In this document: positions 5,523-35,905 of the stretch, in pieces
Position numbering within the stretch: position 1 is the stretch's first letter
Layout: every line of letters starts with the position of its first letter
DNA from: a virus
Length of the DNA: 36,563 nucleotides
Strand: one strand, 5' to 3'
IMG/VR virus record: IMGVR_UViG_3300025132_000123
Span: 1 to 36,563 of that record
Program-made: the position numbers and the translations under genes
The notes under the pieces: model-generated
Told to the model about the DNA's origin: nothing
The model's database searches: none
What the model saw: the letters and a program-made list of their open reading frames with translations, nothing else

Positions 5523-5722
5523 TGGAATTAAAAGAATTACAAAAAATGTACAGAATTACTTTTGACTCAGGAGAAGGGAAGGAAGTATTAGCAGATTTAA
5601 AGTCTGCTTATTACCATAGGAGTTCGTTTGATACTTGTCCTTATGAAACAGCATATAAGGAAGGTCAACGAGCTGTTATAATACGAATAATCAATCTATT
5701 AAAGGAGCAAAAAAATGATTGA
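5522..5722 (+). CDS. Bbp19-like phage protein
   Basis: A 66-residue protein matching, from memory, the small Bbp19-type family found between portal and scaffold in many podoviruses: 'YRITFDSGEGKEVLADL' near the start and 'TAYKEGQRAVIIRIINLL' near the end. The function of the family is not known to me; the constant position suggests a head-assembly or virion role. It starts in a TAATG overlap with the portal stop and overlaps the scaffold start by eight bases. Confidence 0.7.
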   Translation: MELKELQKMYRITFDSGEGKEVLADLKSAYYHRSSFDTCPYETAYKEGQRAVIIRIINLLKEQKND

Positions 5723-6551
5723 AGAAACGACCACAACAGAAGGTAACCCTGTAGAACAACCTGTTGAACAGCCAGAAAGTTCTGTATTAGGGTCTACTGT
5801 AAGTGATAATCAAGATTGGAAATCAACATTACCAGAAGATTTAAAAAACGATCCTACATTATCTAATTTTAAAGATGTAGAATCATTAGCTAAAACAGTA
5901 GTGCATCAACAAAAAGTATTAGGTAATCGTATTCCTATACCAAAAACTGATGAAGAAAGAATGGAAGTCTATAATAAATTAGGCAGACCAGAAGCTGCTG
6001 ATAAATATGAAGTAAATGTGCCAGAAGATTATTCTGCATATTTTACTGAGGATCAGATTAGTCAATTTAAAAATGTAGCTCATCAAATGGGTTTAAACCA
6101 ACAACAAGTAGAAGGTCTTGTTAATTATCAAATGGAATCTATAAAGAATCAAGGAGATATGTATGCATCTCAAGTAGATGTACAAAGACAAGAATCTGAA
6201 GCTATGCTTAAAAAAGAATGGGGTTATGATTATGATGCCCAAGTTCGCAATGCTAGGAGAGCAATAGATGTTTATGGTGATAATGAAATAAAAGAACTAA
6301 TGAACACAGAAGCAGGTAATCATCCTGCTGTTGTTCGTTTGTTTGCTAGATTAGGTAAAGATATTACTGAAGATATGGCACAAAACACACAAAATAACAC
6401 TTTAGCATCATCACCATTAGATGCAAAACAAGAGATACAGGACACTTTTAATAATCCAGAACATCCTTATCACAACCCTAGACATAAGGATCATCAACCT
6501 GCTGTAGAAAAAATGCGACAGTTACATGAAAAAGTGTATGGTAATTCTTAA
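5715..6551 (+). CDS. Capsid assembly scaffolding protein
   Basis: A 278-residue acidic, helix-rich protein equivalent to T7 gp9, which guides coat protein into proheads and leaves before DNA fills them. The N-terminus is disordered and rich in Glu, Thr and Pro, followed by 'WKSTLPEDLKNDPTLSNF' (about 36-53) and 'ESLAKTVVHQQKVLGNRIP' (57-75), both typical of podovirus scaffolds. The C-terminal 'HPYHNPRHKDHQPAVEKM' segment is basic and probably binds coat. It lies directly before the coat gene as expected. Confidence 0.9.
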   Translation: MIEETTTTEGNPVEQPVEQPESSVLGSTVSDNQDWKSTLPEDLKNDPTLSNFKDVESLAKTVVHQQKVLGNRIPIPKTDEERMEVYNKLGRPEAADKYEVNVPEDYSAYFTEDQISQFKNVAHQMGLNQQQVEGLVNYQMESIKNQGDMYASQVDVQRQESEAMLKKEWGYDYDAQVRNARRAIDVYGDNEIKELMNTEAGNHPAVVRLFARLGKDITEDMAQNTQNNTLASSPLDAKQEIQDTFNNPEHPYHNPRHKDHQPAVEKMRQLHEKVYGNS

Positions 6552-26379: not shown

Positions 26380-26396
26380 TTTGTGGATTATGCAAG
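26380..26396. repeat. 17-bp direct repeat, copy B (upstream side of lysis cassette)
   Basis: The second copy of TTTGTGGATTATGCAAG, between the nuclease stop and the first lysis gene. On the minus strand it reads CTTGCATAATCCACAAA and lies about 20 bases before the first lysis ATG, so it could be part of a promoter (TTGCAT with TAACAT 16 bases on), though both boxes are weak. Confidence 0.85.
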
Positions 26397-26410
26397 TGTA
26401 TTTAAGTTAA

Positions 26411-27298
26411 CTAAAATATGGTATCATTAAAGTGTTTACACCATTTATTGACTCGGCAATAGTCAGCACATCTAACATCTTTACCTGCTCTGTGTACTAT
26501 TAAACAACCTTTACCTTCTTGCATATTTTTTTCTTTTAGATATTCTTTGGCATCATTTAAAGTTGGTAATACCCTTAGTGCAGATTTTCTACCATCTTTC
26601 ATAACTGCAAAACTATCTTCTTTTCTCCATCTTTCTTTAGGTGAGCAAATATCTGGTTCTTTTATATCTGCTTGTTGATGTAATCTTATTCTTTCTCTAA
26701 TAAAATGTTCTTGTTCTTCGTTTGACCATAACCTAATAGGTATCTGAACTACTTGTGCTTGGGGGTAGTTATCAGATTTACTAGCTTGTAGTTTAGACCA
26801 ATCCCTCAATATAGCTATGATATATAATTTATTTATTTTTATATTGACTTTATCTGGATTATGTTTAGCTAAAAAATATAATATATTTAATTGTTCTTCC
26901 CATTCATCTTTACCATTTTGCAAAGCATCTAAAGCTGACCAAGCTGAAGTAGTTTTAAAATCAATTAAATCTCCTTCACTTGTTATGTAATCAAATTGTC
27001 CAGATAATGTCCACCCATTAGTAATATCATCATCTTTGTAGAATAATCGTATTTCTGCTAAATCGTTTTCTATCTTTGCTCTTTCAATTACATGGTGAAC
27101 AGATGAACCAAGTAATGCCCATATTCTATCTGCAACATCTTCTTCTATTTCATCTTTATGCTTGATCTCTAAGTGTCTAATTAAAGGGGGTGCTATCAAG
27201 CGAGTAGTAGATATATCTGATCCAGAGGGGTCATAAGGATCATTCTCTACTGCCCTCTTGATAGCTAGGGGAAGGTTCATTTTATTCGTAAGTTTCAT
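26411..27298 (-). CDS. PD-(D/E)XK exonuclease, RecB/Cas4-like
   Basis: A 295-residue nuclease of the RecB/Cas4 group. Visible motifs: 'GSSVHHVIE' (64-72), D103 in 'SGQFDYI', D113-F-K115 in 'DLIDFKTT', and Q136-x4-Y141. Four cysteines (C218, C277, C281, C287) could hold an iron-sulfur cluster as in Cas4 and AddB. It probably resects DNA ends for recombination-dependent replication together with the SSB-like protein encoded upstream in the same operon. The start is separated by two bases from the small upstream gene. Confidence 0.85.
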   Translation of the reverse strand: MKLTNKMNLPLAIKRAVENDPYDPSGSDISTTRLIAPPLIRHLEIKHKDEIEEDVADRIWALLGSSVHHVIERAKIENDLAEIRLFYKDDDITNGWTLSGQFDYITSEGDLIDFKTTSAWSALDALQNGKDEWEEQLNILYFLAKHNPDKVNIKINKLYIIAILRDWSKLQASKSDNYPQAQVVQIPIRLWSNEEQEHFIRERIRLHQQADIKEPDICSPKERWRKEDSFAVMKDGRKSALRVLPTLNDAKEYLKEKNMQEGKGCLIVHRAGKDVRCADYCRVNKWCKHFNDTIF

Positions 27299-28133: not shown

Positions 28134-28331
28134 ATGAGTTATGAATTAGCCATAGAAAGAAAACAAGAAGTCATCACTAAATATGGTGGTGGCAAGAATT
28201 TATCTCGGTTATTAAAAATATCACACCCTGCTGTATCTAAATGGGAAGTGATCCCACAATTAAGAGCATTTCAGATTGCTAATTTTGGTGATTATACAGT
28301 AGATTATATTAGACCAGATTTGAAATTTTAA
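28134..28331 (+). CDS. YdaS/Cro-like transcription regulator
   Basis: A 65-residue helix-turn-helix protein. 'GGGKNLSRLLKISHPAVSKW' is the HTH region and 'VDYIRPDL' near the end is typical of the YdaS/Cro group ('LRPD'). It probably binds the dyad in its own promoter and balances the two divergent operons. The likely -10 box is 6-9 bases before the ATG, so the mRNA would be leaderless; no ribosome site exists. It is a single-gene unit closed by a terminator. With the YdaU-like gene further on it recalls the Rac prophage ydaS-ydaU order. Confidence 0.82.
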   Translation: MSYELAIERKQEVITKYGGGKNLSRLLKISHPAVSKWEVIPQLRAFQIANFGDYTVDYIRPDLKF

Positions 28332-28374: not shown

Positions 28375-28533
28375 TTAGTCTTTGACTTTACGAAAAGTAA
28401 ATGTGTGAACTTTATCTACCATTTTATCAAGAGCCAACAAACATCTTTGTTTAGCTTTTTCTTTGGTAGTATCTGTACCCCAAGCACTTATTCTTTTGTC
28501 TTTGTCTAAAGCAAAGCATCTGAACATAAACAT
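28375..28533 (-). CDS. Small basic protein, 52 aa
   Basis: A 52-residue frame reading 'MFMFRCFALDKDKRISAWGT' then a basic helix and an end 'VHTFTFRKVKD'. It has a strong ribosome site (GGAAGGGGGTG right before ATG) and a near-consensus promoter 18 bases upstream, so it is expressed alone and probably early and strongly. No family recognised. It sits antiparallel between the regulator and the origin-like region, a location where a replication or host-takeover factor would not be surprising. Confidence 0.75.
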   Translation of the reverse strand: MFMFRCFALDKDKRISAWGTDTTKEKAKQRCLLALDKMVDKVHTFTFRKVKD

Positions 28534-28551
28534 CACCCCCTTCCTTATGAT

Positions 28552-28580
28552 ATTATATCACATCACTTAACCTAAGTCAA
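28552..28580 (-). promoter_or_regulatory. Near-consensus sigma70 promoter for the 52-aa gene
   Basis: On the minus strand TTGACT (28575-28580), a 17-bp spacer and a perfect TATAAT (28552-28557). Transcription would start about 28545, giving a short leader that contains GGAAGGGGGTG. It is the strongest promoter seen in the window. Confidence 0.85.
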
Positions 28581-28619
28581 CAATTATTTATAAGTCAATG
28601 TGAGCAAGGGTTTTAGAGC

Positions 28620-28652
28620 ATAGCATTGCCATAGCATTGTTATAGGGTTGCT
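28620..28652. repeat. Three tandem 11-bp iteron-like repeats
   Basis: ATAGCATTGCC (28620-28630), ATAGCATTGTT (28631-28641) and ATAGGGTTGCT (28642-28652) follow each other with exact 11-bp spacing, one helical turn, so a protein would see them on the same face of DNA. They lie in noncoding DNA just before the replication genes and could be initiator-binding sites. Confidence 0.7.
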
Positions 28653-28680
28653 ATTTTTTGCCAATGGCAAATTATAGCCC
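28645..28680. other. Nested inverted repeats (possible origin hairpin)
   Basis: Inner arms TTTGCC (28657-28662) and GGCAAA (28666-28671) are enclosed by GCTAT (28650-28654) and ATAGC (28674-28678), with an outer GGG/CC pair. The structure could extrude as a hairpin or bind a dimeric protein. It has no T run after it and so is not a terminator. It adjoins the iteron-like repeats. Confidence 0.6.
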
Positions 28681-28715
28681 TTCATCTTCATCTTCATCTT
28701 CACCTTCATCTTCAT
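28680..28715. repeat. CTTCAT hexamer repeat (six units)
   Basis: Six units of CTTCAT (the fourth is CTTCAC) make a 36-bp pyrimidine-biased tract. Read on the minus strand it would give an acidic Asp/Glu run, but no start codon precedes it in that frame before a stop, so it is probably noncoding. A strand-biased, easily opened tract next to the iterons and hairpin is compatible with an origin. Confidence 0.85.
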
Positions 28716-28762
28716 CTGCTATACAAGATATAAGGACACTTACACCTAATTTAAAAAAAAAG

Positions 28763-28791
28763 TTGACAATGTATTACACTTAACTTACATT
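28763..28791 (+). promoter_or_regulatory. Replication-operon promoter, apparently leaderless
   Basis: TTGACA (28763-28768), a 17-bp spacer and TACATT (28786-28791) precede the ATG at 28799 by only seven bases, so transcription should start at or within a base or two of the start codon. No ribosome site precedes that ATG. The A9 tract before the -35 box could act as an UP element. Confidence 0.72.
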
Positions 28792-28798
28792 AACAACT

Positions 28799-29176
28799 AT
28801 GCGAAAATCAATAAACCAAGAACAATCACCTTCATTTCAATTTTATGCTAGTGATTGGATAAGTAGTCCAAACAGATTAAGACTATCATTAGAAGAACAA
28901 GGTGCATACATTTTATTGTATTGTTATTGTTGGCAAGGATTTGAAATAGAGAATGATGAAGAAGTATTAAGTAGAATGTGTAATTGTAGAATAGATAAGA
29001 TAAGAAGTATAATGCCAAACATTATACATTTATTTAAGCAAGTAGAAAAAAATGGTAGAATATATTTACAATGTATTCAAGCAGAAGAAGAAAGAAAAGA
29101 ACAAGAACTCAACAGAATAAAAAGAAGTAAAGCAGGTAAGTTGGGTGCGAAGATAAGGTGGAAGAACATTAAATGA
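28799..29176 (+). CDS. YdaU-like replication protein (DUF1376)
   Basis: A 125-residue protein whose first half is the DUF1376 signature: 'FQFYASDWISSPNRLRLSLE', 'EQGAYILLYCYCWQGFEI'. The C-terminus 'KAGKLGAKIRW' is a basic segment seen in many YdaU-type proteins. These are encoded in phage replication modules and are thought to help initiation or helicase loading, but the mechanism is not settled to my knowledge. First gene of the rightward replication operon, directly after the origin-like region, probably read from a leaderless mRNA. Confidence 0.85.
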   Translation: MRKSINQEQSPSFQFYASDWISSPNRLRLSLEEQGAYILLYCYCWQGFEIENDEEVLSRMCNCRIDKIRSIMPNIIHLFKQVEKNGRIYLQCIQAEEERKEQELNRIKRSKAGKLGAKIRWKNIK

Positions 29177-29241
29177 CAATATTATTAATACTTAGTTATA
29201 TATTATTAGGTCTAATAATTTTTTTATTTGAGAATAGGTAA
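29173..29241 (+). CDS. 22-residue single-helix membrane peptide
   Basis: The frame 'MTILLILSYILLGLIIFLFE' plus two residues is a single hydrophobic helix. It starts in an ATGA overlap with the YdaU-like stop and ends in a TAATG overlap with the primase start, bridging exactly the gap between them. That double overlap is unlikely by accident, but the peptide may also serve only to carry ribosomes to the primase start. Function unknown. Confidence 0.5.
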   Translation: MTILLILSYILLGLIIFLFENR

Positions 29242-30035
29242 TGCAGTACAGAGATTTTTTATATGCTTTCGGAGAACATCATAGTTTTCAAACCTTTTGT
29301 GATAAGGGCAAGAACAAAAGATTAATTAAACAATTACATGGAACAATAGATCAGCACATAGATGAACTTACTGAACTAAATAAAAAAGGTGCAGGTGTAT
29401 ATTTTACAGTAAACCAAACTAATTTAGAGGGCAGAACTACAAAACACATTACAAAAATAAGAGCAGTATTCTGTGATTTTGATGGCACACCTATGCCAGA
29501 TAAGTTTGATATACCACCACATTTTATTATAAATACGAGTCCTAATAAGTTTCATACTTATTGGCTAGTAGAAGATATGCCATTAGAAAGTTTTACACTT
29601 TATCAACAAGCATTAGCAAGTAAGTTTGGTTCAGATAGATCGGTGAAAGATTTACCAAGACTACTGCGTATAGCAGGGTTCTGGCACAATAAAAAGAAAC
29701 CATATCCTGTCAAGATAGTTAAGCAAAATATTATGACACCATACACAATGGAAGATATTAGAGATGGATTAGGATTACAAAGACCAAAGAAAAAAGTAAT
29801 AAAATACAACCCAACTAATTTGGTTAGAAATAAAGATTTTGAAGTAAAAGGTGTAGGATTAGGGGGTAGGCATGAATTTCTTGTTAAGATGTTAGTGGCT
29901 ATGAGAATGAGAGGTGAGTCGTATGAGTATGCAAAAGACCAAGTGTTGACATTTGCCAATAAATGTAATCCTCCAGAAAGTTATAGTGAAGTTATGTTTC
30001 AATTAAACGATATATGGAATAGATATGGAACTTAG
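29241..30035 (+). CDS. AEP-type DNA primase (RepB-primase-like)
   Basis: A 264-residue primase of the archaeo-eukaryotic fold. The catalytic pair D79-F-D81 ('VFCDFDG'), 'SPNKFHTYW' (100-108, with the nucleotide-binding His) and D137 in 'KDLPRLLRIAGFWHN' are all visible. The last 60 residues form a helical PriCT-like domain. It should lay primers at the origin; some relatives can also extend DNA, which matters because no other polymerase is encoded. It overlaps the helicase gene by 11 bases, suggesting they act together. Confidence 0.85.
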   Translation: MQYRDFLYAFGEHHSFQTFCDKGKNKRLIKQLHGTIDQHIDELTELNKKGAGVYFTVNQTNLEGRTTKHITKIRAVFCDFDGTPMPDKFDIPPHFIINTSPNKFHTYWLVEDMPLESFTLYQQALASKFGSDRSVKDLPRLLRIAGFWHNKKKPYPVKIVKQNIMTPYTMEDIRDGLGLQRPKKKVIKYNPTNLVRNKDFEVKGVGLGGRHEFLVKMLVAMRMRGESYEYAKDQVLTFANKCNPPESYSEVMFQLNDIWNRYGT

Positions 30036-31506
30036 AGAATACCAAGAGTTTGCAATAGAAAATGTCAAGCAAGAATTTGCTAAAGGGAATAAAAAAGTTT
30101 TATTAGTTGCACCTACTGGAAGTGGTAAAACAGTTATTGCTAGTAGAATGATAGAAAAAGCAGAGCAAAAATATAAATCAAGTTTGTTTGTAGCACATAG
30201 AAGGGAACTTGTTAAACAATGTTCGGCAAAGCTACATCAATTTGGAATAAATGCAGGTGTAATTATGGCAGGTATAACTGGTGTATGGCATTACAATACA
30301 CAGATAGCAAGTATTCAAACATTTATATCAAGAAAAGATGATAATGATTTTAAAAAACCTAAAGCTGATTTATTAATTATAGATGAAGCACATAGGTCAA
30401 CAAGTAAATCATTTAGAAAATTATTAGCAGAATATCCAGATGCTTATGTTGTTGGTTTAACTGCAACCCCTTTAAGAAATGATAGTTCTGGATTAGGTGA
30501 TATATATGATACATTAGTAGAAGTAAGTGATATTAAAACTTTAACAAGTCAAGGTTTTTTAGTTCCTTGCAAAGTATTTGCACCGACAATACCAGATTTA
30601 AAAGGTGTTGCCACAGTAAGAGGTGATTATGATGCAAGAGAATTAGACAAAAGAATGAATCAAGTAAAATTAGTGGGTGATTTAGTAGAGCATTGGATTC
30701 AGTTTGCCCTTGATAGACCAACAGTAGTATTTGCTAGTAGTATTGCTCACAGTAAATATATTTGCAAAATATTTAATCAGAATGGTATACCAAGTGGACA
30801 TATAGATAGTGAGATGCCAGATATAGAAAGAGAAAGACAACTAAAGATGATGCAAGAAGATAAGATAAAAGTGTTATGTAATTGTCAAATACTTACTGAA
30901 GGGTGGGATATGCCTAAAATTTCTTGCGTAGTATTAGCAAGACCTACTCGTTCTATGGGGTTATATTTACAAATGGTAGGTAGAAGTTTAAGACCATTTA
31001 CAAATAAAAAAGATACAATGATTATAGATCACTCTGGTGCAGTATATGAAAATGGTTTTCCAGATGAAAAAAGAGAATGGAAATTAGAGTATAGTAAAGA
31101 AGATAAGAAGAAACTAAAAGAACCAAAAGAAATAATTAAGCAACCATTTACCTGCATTAAATGTGATTTTGTTTACAAACCTACAAAAGAAAATCCAGAA
31201 TGTCCTAATTGTAGTTTTGTGCCAACAAAAAAAGAAGTACAATTATTAATTAAGCAAGGTAGATTACAAGAAGTAAAAAAACCAAAAGAGAATATTAAAA
31301 CAGAAGATAAGAAAAGTTTTTATGCCCAACTATTGTTTATAGCTAGACAAAAAGGGTATAAAGAGGGGTGGGCAAGTCATACTTTTAGAGAAAAATACAA
31401 ACATTTTCCCCATTCTAAAATGGTCTTGCCTACACCACCAACACCAGAAGTTTTTAACTTTCTGAAACATCTACAAATAAAAAAAGCAAAAGGAATAAGA
31501 TTATGA
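30025..31506 (+). CDS. SF2 DEAH helicase with C-terminal zinc finger
   Basis: A 493-residue helicase. Motifs in order: I 'APTGSGKT' (29-36), II DEAH (120-123), III TATP (146-149), V 'EGWDMP' (292-297) and VI 'QMVGRSLRPF' (317-326, usually QxxGRxxR). A zinc ribbon follows: C377-x2-C380 and C393-x2-C396. This layout is like RadD and phage recombination helicases rather than a replicative ring helicase. It may open the origin or remodel forks and recombination intermediates. It overlaps primase and the next gene, in one translational chain. Confidence 0.9.
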   Translation: MELREYQEFAIENVKQEFAKGNKKVLLVAPTGSGKTVIASRMIEKAEQKYKSSLFVAHRRELVKQCSAKLHQFGINAGVIMAGITGVWHYNTQIASIQTFISRKDDNDFKKPKADLLIIDEAHRSTSKSFRKLLAEYPDAYVVGLTATPLRNDSSGLGDIYDTLVEVSDIKTLTSQGFLVPCKVFAPTIPDLKGVATVRGDYDARELDKRMNQVKLVGDLVEHWIQFALDRPTVVFASSIAHSKYICKIFNQNGIPSGHIDSEMPDIERERQLKMMQEDKIKVLCNCQILTEGWDMPKISCVVLARPTRSMGLYLQMVGRSLRPFTNKKDTMIIDHSGAVYENGFPDEKREWKLEYSKEDKKKLKEPKEIIKQPFTCIKCDFVYKPTKENPECPNCSFVPTKKEVQLLIKQGRLQEVKKPKENIKTEDKKSFYAQLLFIARQKGYKEGWASHTFREKYKHFPHSKMVLPTPPTPEVFNFLKHLQIKKAKGIRL

Positions 31507-33714: not shown

Positions 33715-33759
33715 CTTTGCACCCCTTTTTTCTGCTTTGTTTTTATTCATAATAACTTA

Positions 33760-33788
33760 ACTTTACTTAACTATTGTTTATGTGTCAA
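33760..33788 (-). promoter_or_regulatory. Promoter for the second half of the small-gene block
   Basis: On the minus strand TTGACA (33783-33788), a 17-bp spacer and TAAAGT (33760-33765). The terminator at 33808-33838 lies just upstream, so this promoter restarts transcription for the seven genes down to 32361. Confidence 0.72.
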
Positions 33789-35831: not shown

Positions 35832-35875
35832 AAGTACCTTCCTTAAATTAAGATTAATATTATTAACATAAGTTA

Positions 35876-35905
35876 ATTATATACATATTTAACCAAAGTT
35901 TACAA
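35876..35905 (-). promoter_or_regulatory. Promoter of the leftward small-gene block
   Basis: On the minus strand TTGTAA (35900-35905), an 18-bp spacer and a perfect TATAAT (35876-35881). Transcription would start near 35869, giving a leader of about 38 bases ending in AAGGAAGG. It diverges from the TerS promoter. Confidence 0.72.

Follow-up and report, generated by a model that had tools for sequence, protein, structure and literature searches.

Gene neighbourhood and the noncoding gap

The window, i.e., the whole stretch of DNA that was analysed (36,563 bp), is a complete viral record with a terminal overlap of 99 nt and represents the genome of a marine SAR11-type phage; among named relatives, the helicase places it nearest to Pelagibacter phage EXVC032P Baldr, with 59.5% identity. 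In its replication region, a Cro-like gene on the + strand and a 53-aa ORF on the - strand are followed by a noncoding gap and then by the genes of a DUF1376 (YdaU-like) protein, a RepB-type AEP primase and a helicase. The Cro-like regulator (P22_Cro; 28134-28331, + strand) matched PF14549 with E=3e-12 and lies outside the core module that is described below. The three genes that a preliminary description of this DNA had placed after the gap were all recovered on the + strand: the DUF1376 protein of 125 aa, with a predicted winged helix and long helix (28799-29176; PF07120, E=3e-10), the primase (29241-30035; PF16793, E=6e-12; phrog_10514) and the superfamily 2 (SF2) DNA helicase (30025-31506; PF04851 and PF00271; phrog_16, E=4e-105), which is RadD-like at a level below the cut-off. 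In Rhizobium phage RHph_TM3_3_3 (locus L263, 3265-3723), the gene after DUF1376 carries the annotation of a DnaA-like replication initiator, and in loci L262 and L264 a replicative helicase adjoins DUF1376.

An iteron origin had been considered unusual for a phage with a T7-like virion. The structural genes in the window are indeed of the podovirus type, but the early region, which comprises the Cro-like gene, DUF1376, primase and helicase, resembles the early regions of temperate phages, and a scan of 20 proteins, drawn from the replication region and the larger genes, detected no DNA polymerase family. Given the lack of a polymerase in the families searched and the temperate-like early region, an origin that depends on the host polymerase is to be expected.

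The gap holds a module of ~110 bp (28619-28730) that begins with 11-bp iterons and continues through a nested dyad and a GC-rich step with a periodic tract of 6 bp to the motif CAAGATA. The three tandem 11-bp repeats that had been reported are present on the + strand (28619-28651), but they start at 28619 and not at 28620, and only two of them are good copies: iteron 1 is CATAGCATTGC (28619-28629), iteron 2 is CATAGCATTGT (28630-28640; 10/11 identical) and the degenerate iteron 3 is TATAGGGTTGC (28641-28651; 8/11 identical). The imperfect palindrome ATRGC-ATT-GCYAT lies within each of them. The nested dyad (28650-28678) was found as described, with the inner palindrome TTTGCCAATGGCAAA at 28657-28671 and the outer arms GCTAT and ATAGC at 28650-28654 and 28674-28678, respectively. 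A short GC step, GCCC (28677-28680, + strand), stands between the dyad and the hexamer tract (CTTCAT)3 CTTCAC (CTTCAT)2 (28680-28715, + strand), whose six units were confirmed with one of them being CTTCAC; this tract is proposed to serve in unwinding or single-strand loading. The conserved terminus of the module is CAAGATA (28724-28730, + strand), and the A9 run, which was also confirmed, follows at 28753-28761 (+ strand) and is shared with close relatives only. Tandem Repeats Finder gave scores of 69 (period 6) and 42 (period 11) in the gap, and in 200 composition-preserving shuffles the maximum score was 42 and the 95th percentile was 35. The repeats of the gap are real and far beyond chance, with both periods exceeding the 95th percentile and period 6 exceeding every shuffle. 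The pattern of the tract has no second occurrence within the window.

Both of the divergent promoters that had been described are present, but only one of them accompanies the module. The rightward promoter of the DUF1376 operon, TTGACA-17-TACATT (28763-28791, + strand; 10/12), overlaps operator-like TTAAC/GTTAA repeats, to which the Cro-like regulator possibly binds. The leftward promoter, TTGACT-17-TATAAT (28552-28580, - strand; 11/12), serves the inserted 53-aa ORF and is not conserved; it falls outside the conserved module because it belongs to an insertion that was seen in the window and L009. This near-consensus promoter and its leftward ORF (28375-28536) lie between cro and the module, and the insertion is absent from L008 and L002-L006. 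Additionally, GTTAAC-like palindromic sites were observed at 151-166, 26396-26411, 28566-28581, 28779-28794, 33756-33771 and 35862-35877, i.e., six matches to GTTAACTTAAGTTAAC at ≤3 mismatches versus 0.8 expected. Some of them lie over promoters, and these sites are possible Cro operators.

A switch in GC skew, which had been anticipated at the gap, was not borne out: the local cumulative minimum near 28.2 kb coincides with the change of gene strand. In the leftward genes between 24.7 and 28.0 kb, third positions on the coding strand show a skew near zero, a value that is confounded by gene composition. The skew misfits bidirectional forks from 28.7 kb and was given no weight.

Conservation of the module and arrays within DUF1376 genes

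Relatives were gathered by scanning IMG/VR with the DUF1376 protein (down to ~60% identity) and with the primase (down to ~51%), and those with at least 900 bp upstream were searched using an nhmmer profile that was built from 54 exact-dyad examples. The module was found upstream of DUF1376 in 78/78 relatives with sufficient sequence, in a single orientation throughout, so that none of them lacked the repeats, and an ORF running through the module was not conserved. The seed sequences match the profile by construction, but L010, L019, L033, L035, L040 and others, which have no exact dyad and were not seeds, were matched as well. The distance from the module to the ATG was 20-491 nt, mostly 46-92 nt. 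When loci were retrieved by the primase alone, 44/45 had the module upstream of it and in that orientation, with many of these contigs overlapping the first set. A blind DNA scan of IMG/VR for the dyad returned mostly this module among its exact matches, and of the 45 module loci from the DNA-pattern scan with enough flank, DUF1376 was the next gene in 44; the remaining locus, L155, has the module inside DUF1376. In Baldr, the module lies at ~32.30-32.42 kb, and a small gene stands between it and the downstream DUF1376. The left neighbours vary among the relatives (Cro, unrelated ORFs or terminator-like DNA), but the module stays. The helicase is shared by Pseudomonas phage YA3 and Synechococcus phage S-LBS1, and in the gaps read there, no such module was seen by eye.

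The plan of the module is kept while its sequence drifts. In the relatives, iterons such as TATAGCATTGC precede the dyad TTTTGCYAATGGCAAAA, which often lies between GCTAT and ATAGC, and a GC step of CCCC, GCCC or GCTC leads into tract units of TTCATC/TTCACC/TACAAC or of TATACA/TATACC and then into CAAGATA, whose AAGAT with the preceding C was found in 54/54 non-redundant modules. The family consensus of the tract is T-W-C-A-N-C with a 6-nt period. Among the non-redundant modules, the self-match of the iteron region was 0.54 at lag 11, 0.30-0.39 at lags 5, 6, 16 and 17 (sub-repeats) and 0.14-0.28 at the remaining lags; the tract, which also has a 3-nt sub-period, gave 0.73, 0.72 and 0.68 at lags 6, 12 and 18. 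Both the lag-11 iterons and the lag-6 tract thus persist through sequence drift. The periodic tract always lies 3' of the iterons and dyad, and the distance from the start of the dyad to (C)AAGAT is mostly 66-67 nt and otherwise mainly close to 58 or 72 nt, as would be expected if whole hexamers were gained or lost.

Some matches of the blind dyad scan fell inside other DUF1376-like genes (L155, L188, L189, L136 and L158). The dyads there sit directly after the domain-ending motif A-G-K-x-G-A-x-x-R-W, at which the DUF1376 protein of the window terminates. Near-identical modules within the DUF1376 coding sequence were found in L256, L155/L267, L268 and L270; the one in L256, from a Gemmatimonadales assembly, reads GATAGCAATGCCATAGTTTTGCCAATGGCAAACGATAGCACTTCATCTTCATCTTCATCTTC and is close to the module of the window, yet coding. 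A composite iteron and dyad pattern was also searched for in genome contigs, and most of its 18 matches were rejected as chance, often lying in unrelated genes where they encode the peptide FANGK; L256 was a clear case, and L258 and L244 were iteron-rich. These two loci, from Propionibacteriaceae (L258, ~5700-5850) and Treponema (L244, ~490-640) assemblies, are rich in ATGGCAAA or CGGCAAA repeats, and DUF1376 was not found in their genomes. In the viral contig L271, the DUF1376 tail contains ATGCAAA iterons, the dyad GTTTGCATATGCAAAAC and a AGATCCAGAGTC tract, i.e., a like plan with another half-site.

A survey of bacterial genomes for PF07120 gave 21/299 in the first group drawn and 1/80, 1/78 and 11/369 in three further groups that partly overlapped the first. 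Across 37 loci, Tandem Repeats Finder placed 13/15 period-6, 12/15 period-7 and 15/21 period-11 arrays in the DUF1376 tail, which makes up 12.7% of the sequence (binomial p of 2e-10, 6e-9 and 1e-9, respectively; these values are optimistic as some arrays within a locus overlap and related loci cannot count as independent). Among 34 bacterial DUF1376 loci of full length, mostly from Pseudomonadota, 26 had 11-bp and/or 6-7-bp arrays within 450 nt after the domain, each of the three sham windows had them in 1/34, and about a quarter of the 34 genes had no detectable array. Wherever both kinds were present, the iterons came before the tract (11/11). A simple lag-6 score on the bacterial tails (13/26 loci parsed) gave a mixed picture, and the unbiased tandem-repeat scanning was clearer. 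Because periods of 7 and 11 break the reading frame, the in-gene arrays are likely under selection at the level of the DNA rather than of the protein. The iteron sequences vary between lineages, and their covariation with the protein across divergent members was weak (Mantel r 0.20, p 0.03).

The candidate origin, its probable initiator and other explanations

An AlphaFold2 model of the DUF1376 protein, which was based on 34 aligned members, predicts with confidence (mean pLDDT 85.5) a winged helix and then a long helix. Its six best fold matches in the PDB were RepA_N plasmid initiators (4pql, 4pta and 5kbj, a Rep-DNA complex), of which 4pql and 5kbj belong to the same work as 4PTA. These matches were modest (E of 1.3e-3 to 9e-3, TM about 0.5), and those that came after the RepA_N entries were generic winged helices. 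4PTA is named as a RepA_N structure in the literature (PMC7145576). Besides DUF1376 itself, the neighbours in a viral fold library included replisome organisers of phages and a replication initiator A protein. At the sequence level, a Pfam scan of these 34 members, with E values allowed up to 10, matched DUF1376 and not RepA_N (PF06970), and the DUF1376 profile gave nothing meaningful against the sequences of solved structures. The protein of the window stops after its long helix, at residue 125, and is without the C-terminal host-interaction domain of RepA_N.

From its sequence and its conservation, we consider it very likely that 28619-28730 is the DNA replication origin of this phage, because the module is conserved and strictly linked to DUF1376, because the predicted fold of this protein has RepA_N initiators as its best, though modest, matches and because comparable arrays occur within DUF1376 genes. 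The iteron-origin architecture that had been proposed for the gap is thereby strengthened, since all 78 relatives keep the module as the flanking genes change. DUF1376 is probably the initiator of this candidate origin. Scarcely less likely than the origin itself is the reading as a whole, i.e., a theta-type iteron origin that is bound by DUF1376 and at whose tract the AEP primase and helicase are recruited. Dimers or oligomers of DUF1376 would sit on one face of the helix at the 11-bp iterons and the dyad, and this occupancy would destabilise the adjacent T-W-C-A-N-C tract. A strand of the opened tract would then be captured in a 6-nt register, the tract acting as an unwinding and strand-capture element to which the AEP primase and the SF2 helicase of the phage would be delivered, and the host polymerase would complete theta replication in a phage in which a polymerase gene was not found. 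As the promoter of DUF1376, primase and helicase lies beside the module, the synthesis of the initiator and the firing of the origin could be coupled.

It could be argued that the iterons and dyad are only an operator array through which the promoter of the DUF1376 operon is autoregulated and that replication begins elsewhere. Iteron autoregulation is common among initiators, and a conserved promoter does adjoin the module, with TTGAC[ACT] following it in 48/54 relatives versus a background of 6%. However, this promoter lies at a variable distance from the module (0-40 nt), whereas the interior of the module keeps its preferred spacing, and the promoter already has separate operator-like repeats, i.e., TTAAC/GTTAA, which were found in 23/24 versus a background of 24%. 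Moreover, the hexamer tract has no evident operator role, and other phages and bacterial DUF1376 genes carry comparable arrays in-gene, downstream of any promoter. We therefore regard an exclusively regulatory array as improbable.

A structured RNA that is transcribed over the iterons and dyad, be it a replication primer, an antisense RNA or a leader, is less probable still. RNA-controlled origins are known, and the + strand folds better than its shuffles (z -2.3), but the predicted helices are the DNA palindromes themselves and the exact 11-bp spacing of the direct repeats is a signature of protein-DNA contacts. In Rfam, no family exceeded the threshold for this region, with the two sub-threshold matches being due to chance. 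Least probable of all is a small Ser/Thr-rich protein that starts at the ATG of the dyad (M-A-N-Y-S-P-S-S-S...) and has the tract as its codons: although an ORF of ~24-41 aa spans the tract in 31/54 non-redundant modules and would suit the 3-nt sub-period, the ATG is missing in 19/54 and an early stop occurs in 4, the end of the tract is spread over the three possible frames when counted from the ATG (22/9/4), tracts of the L012 type (TATACA) alter every residue and keep the DNA period, and no ribosome-binding site is apparent. The module was accordingly rejected as a gene, as this sole candidate small ORF is not conserved. The pseudo-ORF in the window (28664-28783, MANYSPSSSS...) shares its frame with the in-gene modules of L155/L256 (..VLPMAKNSSS..), which hints that the noncoding module may descend from the tail of a DUF1376 gene.

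Significance and comparison with known replicons

Reading the noncoding module as an origin suggests what DUF1376, whose function Pfam lists as unknown, may do, and it gives a group of SAR11-type phages without a detected polymerase gene an origin and an initiator that can be put to the test. In more general terms, we see about an even chance that DUF1376 is a widespread, unrecognised class of phage and prophage initiators whose origins, composed of 11-bp iterons and then a 6-7-bp tract, usually lie in their own coding sequence, that in one pelagiphage lineage the origin lies outside the gene and the protein is cut down to the DNA-binding domain, and that the tract is a new strand-capture element, analogous to yet distinct from DnaA-trios. 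In the open-access literature searched, as judged from titles and abstracts, no paper tied DUF1376 or YdaU to an origin and no pelagiphage origin was found. The novelty lies in tying the candidate origin to an uncharacterised family of probable initiators and in the placement of such origins in or out of the gene. The odd low-complexity tails of many DUF1376 proteins (SSSS, IPIP, SDSD) could possibly be explained by origin-like DNA at that place, and in many prophages the repeat architecture could serve to find the origin. The candidate origin also bears on the question of how marine podoviruses that lack a polymerase take over that of the host, which is discussed for cyanopodoviruses (PMC9860041).

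Like the window, RSF1010-type replicons combine iterons with genes of a RepB-type AEP primase and a helicase. The window differs from them in the type of initiator and in the type of helicase. The lambda origin and O protein resemble the arrangement proposed for the window in having iterons for a phage initiator, an origin in or beside the initiator gene and the use of the host polymerase. In lambda, four 19-bp repeats lie in the middle of O, and the P protein brings the host DnaB helicase (PMC3985674). In the window, the iterons are 11 bp long and lie upstream of the gene, and the primase and helicase are encoded by the phage; a P-like helicase-loader family was absent among the matches to the neighbouring genes.

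The basal unwinding system of bacterial origins consists of DnaA-boxes, a GC-rich spacer and DnaA-trios (PMC8287927). The module is similarly arranged, with putative double-strand binding sites, a short GC-rich step and a 3-nt-periodic tract on one side. It differs in that the repeat recurs every 6 nt (6-7 across the family) and in that the middle adenine of the trinucleotides is not family-wide: the CTTCAT units fit middle-adenine trinucleotides (.A.) in one frame, whereas the TACACC and TATACA variants do not. Additionally, no exact DnaA box, TTATNCACA, was found within 3 kb. The likeness is an analogy and not membership in this system.

Close parallels exist with the RepA_N plasmid replicons (pSK41 and pTZ2162) and the phage satellite PLE, which, as proposed here, combine a winged-helix initiator with semi-palindromic iterons. 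The window differs from RepA_N in that there is no sequence match, in that its candidate initiator stops after the N-terminal domain, in that 11-bp iterons are followed by a 6-7-bp tract and in its partners, an AEP primase and an SF2 helicase. In pSK41, the origin is central within rep, and the central domain of the protein is a linker encoded by the origin DNA (PMC5703833), whereas the candidate origin of the window lies upstream of the gene and not within it. In PLE, the RepA_N origin is located in noncoding DNA (PMC7145576). The RepA_N plasmids and many DUF1376 genes thus have their origins, or candidate arrays, inside the gene, whereas PLE and the phage of the window have them in nearby noncoding DNA.
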